From NCBI GenBank assembly GCA_017554405.1, contig JAFZIK010000059.1:1-45828 (forward strand): a DNA stretch of 45,828 bases, read 5' to 3'. Positions 32,161 to 45,828 of this stretch are shown here, piece after piece. Position 1 is the first letter of the stretch. Every line of letters starts with the position of its first letter. Below the pieces are notes generated by a model, which saw nothing but the letters and a program-made list of their open reading frames with translations, was not told where the DNA came from and made no database searches. The translations under genes and the position numbers were made by a program. Origin of the DNA: Clostridia bacterium. Its GTDB lineage: Bacteria > Bacillota > Clostridia > Oscillospirales > Acutalibacteraceae.

Positions 32161-32300
32161 CGAAAGCGCATTTATATATCGAAGCGAAGCCGCACGATGT
32201 TGCCCTTGCGGGCAAACGATGTTATGCGAATGCATAAATAATGTTGCTATGCAAACGATGTTGCCGGACGGCAAATTAAGGTGCCTGCGGCGCATATAAA
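32161..32300. repeat. Hairpin array 2 (CGATGTT spacer)
   Basis: Hairpins TTGCCC/GGGCAA (32200-32215), TATGC/GCATA (32223-32236), TTGC/GCAA (32244-32254) and TTGCC/GGCAA (32261-32274) are separated by the spacer CGATGTT or AATGTT (about 32195, 32217, 32239, 32256). Left of them is a less regular part with ATATATCGAAGCGAAGC; to the right is GTGCCTGCGGC, which also occurs in array 3. No mirrored half was found, so this array may be one half only or truncated. Confidence 0.65.
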
Positions 32301-32303
32301 GCC

Positions 32304-32381
32304 GGGCGATTGATAATCGCCCCTACAAATGGTCAATCTAAATTGATATACCGTAGGGGCGGATATCATCCGCCTGCTTTT
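32304..32381. repeat. Dispersed intergenic repeat, copy 2 (inverted)
   Basis: Positions 32341-32366 are the exact reverse complement of 1246-1271 over 26 bases, and the flanks to about 32381 match at most positions. CGCCCCTAC (32318-32326) and GTAGGGGCG (32353-32361) are inverted arms, and 32304-32322 is itself a hairpin (GGGCGATT/AATCGCCC). As with copy 1, it lies beside a hairpin array. The remainder up to the next gene holds only a small GCGGC/GCCGC hairpin near 32389-32401. Confidence 0.75.
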
Positions 32382-45186: not shown

Positions 45187-45299
<113 letters not shown>

Positions 45300-45306
45300 C
45301 AGTATA

Positions 45307-45415
45307 AACGGGAATCGAAAAGGACGGTTTGCCGTAAGGCAAATTTCAACCTTTCTGTGAATGGTTGAAAAGTCCGTGGGCGTGTAGCCGCGACAGCGGC
45401 GTAGCGATTCCCGTT
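45307..45415 (+). ncRNA. Multibranched structured element between tRNA 3'-end copies
   Basis: The closing stem AACGGGAATCG (45307-45317) pairs with CGATTCCCGTT (45405-45415), the start of the second tRNA-end copy. Inside are GGAC/GTCC (45322-45325, 45372-45375), TTTGCC/GGCAAA with a GTAA loop (45328-45343), an 8-bp stem (45344-45351 with 45363-45370) and GCCGC/GCGGC with a GACA loop (45387-45400). It matches no riboswitch or small RNA I know. Whether it is transcribed is not shown. Confidence 0.5.
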
Positions 45416-45425
45416 GTCCGCTCCA
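45405..45425 (+). repeat. Direct repeat right copy (tRNA-Gly 3' end)
   Basis: This is an exact 21-bp copy of the tRNA-Gly 3' end, 165 bp downstream of the first and followed by another long hairpin. No 5' part of a tRNA precedes it, so it is not a second functional tRNA. Confidence 0.85.
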
Positions 45426-45427
45426 CA

Positions 45428-45464
45428 AAAAGCGCATCTTTTGTCTACCAAAAGATGCGTTTTT
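45428..45464 (+). terminator. Long hairpin leading array 3
   Basis: A 16-bp stem with one G-T pair (45428-45443 with 45449-45464) encloses TCTAC and ends in TTTTT. The apex TTTG-TCTAC-CAAA matches the hairpin before array 1 except for one loop base. Confidence 0.7.
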
Positions 45465-45644
45465 GAATGATGTTTGCCCTATCGGGCAAATGATGAAGCC
45501 TAAGGCAATGATGCCGCTTACGCTAATGATGTGTGCCTGCGGCACGTTAAGAGGCGGGCAAACATCGCATCATTGATTGTGAAACAATCTGCATCATTTC
45601 GGCGTCAGCCGATACATCATCAGGCGCAACGCGCCGACATCATT
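45465..45644. repeat. Mirrored hairpin array 3 (ATGATG spacer)
   Basis: Left half: TTTGCCC/GGGCAAA (45473-45490), GCC/GGC (45498-45506), a weak hairpin near 45514-45523 and GTGCC/GGCAC (45533-45545), with ATGATG spacers. The sequence 45469-45479 also pairs over 11 bp with 45556-45566. Right half: GATTGT/ACAATC (45575-45589), TCGGC/GCCGA (45599-45612) and GGCGC/GCGCC (45623-45635), with CATCAT spacers, the reverse complement. The layout is the same as array 1 with a different spacer. Confidence 0.8.
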
Positions 45645-45671
45645 GATTTTTTCTATTCCCTGCGCTATAAT
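45643..45671 (+). promoter_or_regulatory. Promoter at the right end of array 3
   Basis: TTGATT (45643-45648) and TATAAT (45666-45671) are 17 bp apart. The -35 begins inside the last CATCATT spacer of the array, so the array lies upstream of this transcript rather than in its leader. Confidence 0.7.
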
Positions 45672-45693
45672 AAACACGATAGGGGGAATAGTT

Positions 45694-45828
45694 ATGAAAG
45701 AAAATAAACTCGCAGATCTATCAATGGACTTTTCCATACAAATTATAGACCTCGTAAAGGAACTGAAGGGCAAACACGAATCTGTGATTTCCAATCAAAT
45801 AGGACGTTCAGGCACTTCTATTGGCGCA
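45694..45828 (+). CDS. Four-helix-bundle protein (S23/IVP family), partial
   Basis: The first 45 residues are visible before the window ends. MDFSIQIIDLVKELKGKHES followed by SNQIGRSGTSIGA matches the start of the four-helix-bundle family known from 23S rRNA intervening sequences and related to the Avd accessory protein of diversity-generating retroelements. Family members are about 115-125 residues, so roughly two thirds is missing. AGGGGG stands 7 bp before ATG. The biochemical role of most members is unknown; some bind nucleic acid. The gene is driven by a promoter that starts inside hairpin array 3. Confidence 0.85.
   Translation, partial: MKENKLADLSMDFSIQIIDLVKELKGKHESVISNQIGRSGTSIGA

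Follow-up and report, generated by a model that had tools for sequence, protein, structure and literature searches.

A mirrored hairpin array and an IVP-family gene behind a tRNA gene: a probable selfish element akin to 23S rRNA intervening sequences

Intervening sequences (IVSs) are insertions in 23S rRNA genes that RNase III removes from the transcript without ligation. A study of one in Coxiella burnetii describes an open reading frame (ORF) for an S23p/IVP protein (PMC4990558), and another reports IVP ORFs in the rRNA insertions of CPR bacteria (PMC11270868). According to the former source, the function and origin of IVSs are still unclear after more than 25 years. A gene of this family begins at the right end of the window that we analysed here, a stretch of 45,828 nt from a Clostridia bacterium (contig JAFZIK010000059.1 of assembly GCA_017554405.1, forward strand), where it is preceded by an array of short mirrored words and hairpins. 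What is this array, and why does it stand next to such a gene? Here we show by comparison that the array has a dyad structure, is inherited together with the gene, docks behind tRNA genes, is present or absent at corresponding sites and has gene-less copies. The window copy is probably one of a group of selfish multi-copy elements, each a dyad-symmetric array plus an IVP gene with its promoter fused to the last rung, which would be akin to 23S rRNA IVSs and docked after tRNA genes. A search of the literature, covering few subscription papers, found no description of such a tRNA-docked array–IVP element. The docking, the gene-less arrays as a class, the bracketing of IVP genes by inverted repeats within operons and the link to 23S rRNA IVSs go beyond the first-pass annotation of this DNA, which had placed the locus at 45428–45828, an interval that takes in the array and the gene and leaves out the upstream tRNA-Gly gene (45187–45260). 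The locus consists of the following features:

45187–45260, + strand: docking gene, tRNA-Gly(CCC) (ARAGORN; Rfam tRNA match at 45187–45257)
45261–45404, + strand: module A, a tRNA-adjacent hairpin followed by sequence whose beginning is an inverted copy of the tRNA T-arm (ACGGGAATCGA) (sequence)
45405–45425, + strand: direct copy, 21 nt long, of the 3′ end of tRNA-Gly, with the same sequence as 45240–45260 (sequence)
45426–45465, + strand: array-opening hairpin with A and T tracts and a TTTGTCTACCAAA loop (sequence, terminator scan)
45467–45531, + strand: left half of the array, ATGATG rungs at 45467, 45490, 45508 and 45526 with hairpins between them (sequence, detector)
45556–45567, + strand: centre of the array, GGGCAAACATCG (sequence, folds)
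45568–45643, + strand: right half of the array, CATCAT rungs at 45568, 45592, 45615 and 45638 with hairpins between them (sequence, detector)
45643–45671, + strand: promoter-like TTGATT-17-TATAAT, its −35 beginning on the last base of the last rung (promoter scan)
45694–45828, + strand: 5′ part (45 residues) of an IVP four-helix-bundle gene (TIGR02436/PF05635), cut by the contig end (profile search)

Eight mirrored 6-mers lie at 45467–45643, ATGATG four times and then CATCAT four times, with hairpins between most copies; this is the layout that the first-pass annotation had claimed ahead of a four-helix-bundle gene. Its second claim, that array 1 near the left end of the window has the same architecture with another spacer, also holds, with TGAAAT and ATTTCA as the words. 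The mirroring of the window array is confined to these words, and the hairpins between them differ from one another. At word length 6, the mirrored-array detector found just this array and array 1 (1407–1557) in the whole window, and 20 first-order Markov shuffles of the window yielded no mirrored array at word lengths 6, 7 or 8; at word length 5, chance matches are frequent (43 in 20 shuffles). As RNA (45428–45650; z −6.9) and as DNA (45465–45645; z −5.95 and −5.18 for the two strands), the region folds more stably than all shuffles. The minimum-energy fold is a ladder in which ATGATG pairs with CATCAT and hairpins protrude on both sides; the centroid fold of the + strand DNA loses one rung. 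The first 11 bases of the centre are the exact reverse complement of 45469–45479, that is, of the first rung and the first hairpin arm, with which they may form an alternative stem, whereas the minimum-energy folds instead pair part of the centre with 45534–45540. The opening hairpin resembles a terminator on the − strand only, as judged by the scan, and variants of its loop occur at 13 of 24 arrays in the window's own genome.

The right half runs directly into a promoter-like site. Taken alone this site is weak, because the scan found one at the window array where 0.9 would be expected by chance. Its position is repeated elsewhere. Of 83 arrays that have the main words and lie upstream of IVP genes, 33 have a −35/−10 pair beginning on the final base of the last rung and 19 have one that begins a base later, so that these two offsets account for 52 arrays without overlap, and any of 23 other offsets for at most 6. 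The array stops at the promoter, so transcription of the IVP gene would be expected to begin downstream of it. The gene fragment that follows scores 28.9 bits against TIGR02436 (cut-off 24), which places it in the family, and 26.6 bits against Pfam PF05635, under the cut-off of 33.8 because the gene is truncated at the contig end; the other three PF05635 genes of the genome score 87–101 bits. With a promoter-like site and a family ORF in place, the promoter reading into an S23/IVP-type gene described by the first-pass annotation is borne out.

We then asked how regularly such arrays accompany IVP genes. The strict signature was defined as at least three copies of a 6-mer plus at least three of its reverse complement, in flanks of 330 bp upstream and 160 bp downstream. 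For the genus, 148 IVP matches in 57 of 70 genomes provided 93 loci, mostly the best-scoring and including the four of the window's own genome, of which 87 had 330 bp upstream; a wider sample comprised the best 80 of 269 relatives of one IVP in named genomes, 72 of them with 330 bp upstream. The signature was present at 52 of the 87 genus loci and 66 of the 72 wider loci; shuffles gave 4 of 261 and 1 of 216, and control windows elsewhere in these loci 2 of 99 and 12 of 689. Because the loci were chosen by score or similarity, neither set is an unbiased sample of the family. The enrichment that the first-pass annotation had put forward as a check on its idea is thus found, and 35 of the 87 genus genes lack the strict signature. 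A looser signature (two plus two copies) caught more IVP genes (79 of 87 and 72 of 72), together with 39 of 99 and 253 of 689 control windows; looser settings, which took in 34–44% of controls, were dropped. An upstream-only array detector gave 48 of 87 genus loci, with some words doubtful. Hairpin-free arrays, split arrays and module A were recognized by eye, and the counts of signatures and spacer types include them only in part.

The arrays also have a consistent position relative to tRNA genes. A same-strand tRNA gene is found in the 450 bp ahead of the IVP gene at 42 of 87 genus loci and 52 of 67 wider loci, against one and none on the opposite strand, and in the window's own genome a tRNA gene within 350 bp points at 16 of 24 arrays and away from one. 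One locus (L086) holds two tRNA-Val genes and four mirrored arrays around a single IVP gene, as if the unit had been duplicated in tandem. In the window, the tRNA-Gly gene and the array hairpin are separated by 165 bp (45261–45425) that end in the 21-nt copy of the tRNA 3′ end. Intervening stretches of this type, with a hairpin, an inverted part-copy of the tRNA and a direct copy of the 3′ end of the same tRNA, were seen between tRNA and array in the window, L062, L067, L103 and L117; the inverted copy is clear in the window. Stretches that resemble module A are found elsewhere in the genome and behind tRNA-Gly(CCC) in relatives (L136, L137, L139 and L141), and module A looks like a separate small element that targets tRNA genes.

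To follow array and gene through time, we built a FastTree tree of 158 IVP proteins and compared label changes on it with 300 shuffles; 25 of 159 loci could not be typed for spacer. Spacer type changed 20 times over 133 typed rows (shuffles 70–83), and the distinction between ATGATG and GTGATG only twice over 68 rows (15–25). tRNA isotype changed 59 times over 95 rows (66–77; none of 300 shuffles as low) or, for named rows only, 35 times over 51 (33–42; 13 of 300 as low). On the 86 rows with both labels, there were 13 changes for spacer (39–51) and 55 for tRNA (59–71). tRNA identity therefore clusters a little on the IVP tree and spacer type very strongly, which indicates that an IVP lineage keeps its array type while switching tRNA genes, with array and gene travelling together. 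Their recurrence behind many different tRNA genes of relatives suggests that they spread together as a selfish element. The co-inheritance could also reflect plain linkage without contact between protein and array. Of the two-part system proposed by the first-pass annotation, the association is strongly supported by the enrichment, the shared inheritance of spacer and protein and the rise of array numbers with gene numbers; that the protein binds or mobilizes the array is something we infer.

Many arrays have no such gene behind them. Searches by similarity and with the Rfam RNA family Gut-1 (RF01706) revealed at least 24 mirrored arrays in the genome (a non-exhaustive list from which two A-rich artefacts were removed), with words that include ATGATG, ATGATAT, GTGAAAT, GTGATG, GTGAAG and CATCGTT. 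Each of the four PF05635 matches in the genome lies behind one of these arrays, and the other 20 arrays have no PF05635 match behind them. Array 1 belongs to the latter kind:

1343–1560, + strand: array 1, a hairpin with a TTTGTCTGCCAAA loop and then mirrored TGAAAT/ATTTCA rungs, its left half a match to Rfam Gut-1 (detector, Rfam)

No PF05635 match was found behind array 1. Like many arrays of the genome it matches Gut-1 (65.6 bits; cut-off 50); the window array, with ATGATG/CATCAT, falls under the gathering threshold. Over the 70 genus genomes, the count of Gut-1 rises with that of IVP (rho 0.56, p 5e-7, relatedness ignored; rho 0.58 in the 40 genomes at least 90% complete), where Gut-1 counts include arrays that neighbour an IVP gene and may count an array twice, once for each half. 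Of the 57 genomes with IVP, 48 have Gut-1, as do 6 of the 13 that lack IVP.

Comparison of corresponding sites showed that arrays come and go. At tRNA-Leu(TAA), behind a gene that we take by eye to be coaD-like, the window's own genome carries an array and three relatives that have the tRNA and the sequence beyond (G043, G058 and G059) do not; by eye, the sequences show no match from the base after CCA onward. At the tRNA-Gly site, one relative (L137) has module A and the start of an array and another (L138) has neither, and the sequences of L136 and L139 end too early. Presence and absence extend to protein-coding sites. We sorted 30 genus loci at the gyrB–gyrA junction by eye (gyrB/parE and gyrA/parC type; Pfam for L194). 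Five hold an IVP gene with inverted short repeats (four at 448–450 bp; L269 is known from L197), 11 have intervals of 74–275 bp, several with inverted short repeats and one (L267) with remnants of an IVP gene, and 13 are short (25–58 bp in the eight measured); L259 is ambiguous. No target-site duplication was evident by eye at this junction. Further IVP genes follow atpG, whiA, secA and guaA; in the phylum sample, genes of queA and purE type take this upstream place. Inverted short repeats bracket the IVP gene, again by eye, in relatives at gyrB–gyrA, atpG–atpD and whiA; at secA (L207) half an array precedes the gene and half follows it, and at guaA (L217) no inverted repeat follows. In the window the array lies upstream of the gene and the downstream side is cut by the contig end. 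In the tRNA type the mirrored array does not enclose the IVP gene, so that bracketing by inverted ends is only a possibility for the window copy.

A draw across the phylum found IVP in 57 of 299 genomes. At 30 loci (the best match per genome), the strict signature was present in 5 and missing in 25, and 20 had an exact inverted repeat of at least 10 bases between the two flanks, against about 0.07 expected by chance per locus, a figure from arithmetic rather than shuffles. Four of these genes lie inside 23S rRNA (L301, L307, L312 and L313), and a fifth (L310), flanked by inverted short repeats, is inserted in an RNase P RNA gene (Rfam RF00010, full model over 775 bp). Together, the flank repeats and the insertions in RNA genes indicate that IVP genes are widely accompanied by inverted ends, which the wider kin of the window seem to have elaborated into the hairpin ladder.

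23S rRNA IVSs are among the closest known systems. Shared features are the small size, the IVP ORF, sporadic distribution, a place in or behind stable-RNA or essential genes and, in relatives of the window copy, complementary ends, and the same protein family sits inside 23S rRNA at the four loci above. Unlike an IVS, the window copy stands behind tRNA-Gly, has a ladder of words and hairpins rather than a single stem, carries a promoter on its last rung and has many gene-less counterparts; searches with Rfam and ARAGORN found no rRNA in the window, so the copy lies outside a 23S rRNA gene. How might such an element work? The IVP protein matches the structure 2rld at E 3e-31, and a solved relative is described in PMC4990558 as a ring of five four-helix bundles. 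Such a pentameric ring could recognize the mirrored rungs in DNA, extruded or single-stranded, or in the RNA that corresponds to them; at the rungs it might control its own promoter, and it may help array-bearing DNA to move or be copied, both in cis and in trans, with the strand chemistry presumably supplied by the host or another enzyme. Docking at 3′ ends and in RNA stems would keep host transcripts usable.

The explanation that competes best, unlikely as we judge it, is that the array is a functional RNA: a structured trailer of the tRNA transcript or a leader of the IVP mRNA, acting on termination or on IVP expression and itself immobile. Weinberg et al. (2010; PMC2864571) class Gut-1 as certainly RNA, not cis-regulatory and found in the human gut only. 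The strong fold fits an RNA, as does the first arm, which can pair locally or with the centre in a switch-like manner, and a covariation count over the 17 of 116 arrays with four plus four rungs is weakly positive: shared substitutions were seen for 10 of 48 nested rung partners and for 6 of 144 other rungs. However, 16 of the 32 Gut-1 matches in the genome form eight neighbouring pairs on opposite strands, every one with the left on + and the right on −, a pattern in which Gut-1 looks like one half of a dyad and neither strand is preferred. Counts of G·T versus A·C mismatches, considered as a sign of strand-specific RNA selection, were rejected as such: they flip between the two halves (1:4 and 10:3), on small numbers. 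Of the right-half mismatches, 39 of 57 are G·A. An IVP mRNA starting after the array would not carry it as a leader, and the presence of arrays is scattered among corresponding tRNA genes.

Selfish spread has further competitors in the matter of what moves the arrays. That they are hitchhikers on tyrosine-recombinase islands, which integrate into tRNA 3′ ends and would bring them from one tRNA gene to another, is very unlikely. The 21-nt copy of the tRNA 3′ end between tRNA and array in the window, and its counterparts in L062, L067, L103 and L117, would suit such islands, but 52 of 58 named loci with an upstream tRNA show no further copy of at least 12 nt (several loci being cut by contig ends), and related elements also follow the stop codons of protein genes or interrupt rRNA and RNase P RNA. 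Further copies occur between tRNA and array at four of the 58 loci and downstream at two (L086, at the second tRNA-Val, and L120, before another array); with just two cases, downstream copies were discarded as an integrase footprint.

Inverted hairpin units with a short flanking word resemble REPINs, whose hairpins are mobilized by a Y1 (HUH) transposase of the RAYT/IS200 kind, and in both systems gene-less copies outnumber the gene. The window-type arrays differ in having about four rungs per side and a four-helix-bundle protein without known enzyme activity, and no linkage to Y1 was seen. The genome has three Y1_Tnp matches and Y1 counts correlate weakly with IVP counts (rho 0.25, p 0.04), but the nearest Y1 match lies about 5.5 kb from a found array (C15, 8173 and 2669), Y1 and Gut-1 counts are unrelated over the 70 genomes (rho 0.11) and Gut-1 is present in 18 of 21 genomes that lack Y1. 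Mobilization by Y1, unsupported by linkage or by co-occurrence with Gut-1, is highly improbable. Equally remote is retro-mobilization in which IVP acts like the Avd protein beside the reverse transcriptase of diversity-generating retroelements: IVP and Avd are regarded as homologues (PMC10053308), but RVT_1 has no match in the array-rich, 97.5% complete genome, which leaves this route unsupported, and the Avd model reaches 17.3 bits against a cut-off of 80.

The selfish array–IVP element may have wider kin. It is possible, if doubtful, that IVP proteins mark out a whole class of minimal mobile elements, each ending in folded ladders of stacked four-way junctions; the four-helix ring itself would recognize the rung word and drive copying with no help beyond host replication or repair. 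The class would cover the 23S rRNA IVSs, the RNase P RNA insertion, the inter-cistronic insertions behind essential genes, the tRNA-docked arrays and Gut-1 as gene-less offspring. Gut-1, which is matched by array 1 and many other arrays of the genome, appears to cover one dyad half, and an Rfam RNA family is thereby recast as half of a dyad-symmetric element; IVP genes are seen, too, in RNase P RNA and at junctions of essential genes. The natural copies number in the dozens, their recognition word can change and follows the protein lineage, and both gene-less candidate substrates and empty sites exist, so that binding specificity and mobility become directly testable, and the array–gene pair makes a protein family of unknown function accessible to experiment.

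As with integron cassettes, a varied gene often follows the IVP gene: a mechanically called ORF begins within 200 bp of the IVP stop in 55 of 70 loci of the named set, and 14 of the 55 overlap the stop by four bases. A Pfam scan of 45 of these ORFs gave acetyltransferase (6), nucleotidyltransferase (3) and NUDIX (2) families as the commonest. The left end of the window also codes for part of an IVP protein:

3–119, + strand: IVP gene fragment for the protein's C terminus, cut by the left contig end (TIGR02436 positions 74–109, E 0.00057, 20.1 bits, cut-off 24)

This fragment is outside the four PF05635 matches of the genome. Because the two window fragments cover profile positions 3–40 and 74–109, they may belong to separate genes or be opposite ends of a single gene. 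The contig thus ends within an IVP gene on both sides (3–119 and 45694–45828), as if such genes break assembly as other repeats do. The ORF after the left-end remnant (254–1192) has two dockerin-like repeats, read by eye. Elsewhere in the window, 32193–32277 holds a one-sided half array of CGATGTT words and hairpins, one copy altered, for which the detector gave no mirrored right half, and a 48-nt repeat unlike the arrays occurs in inverted orientation at 1231–1278 and 32334–32381 (92% complementary).
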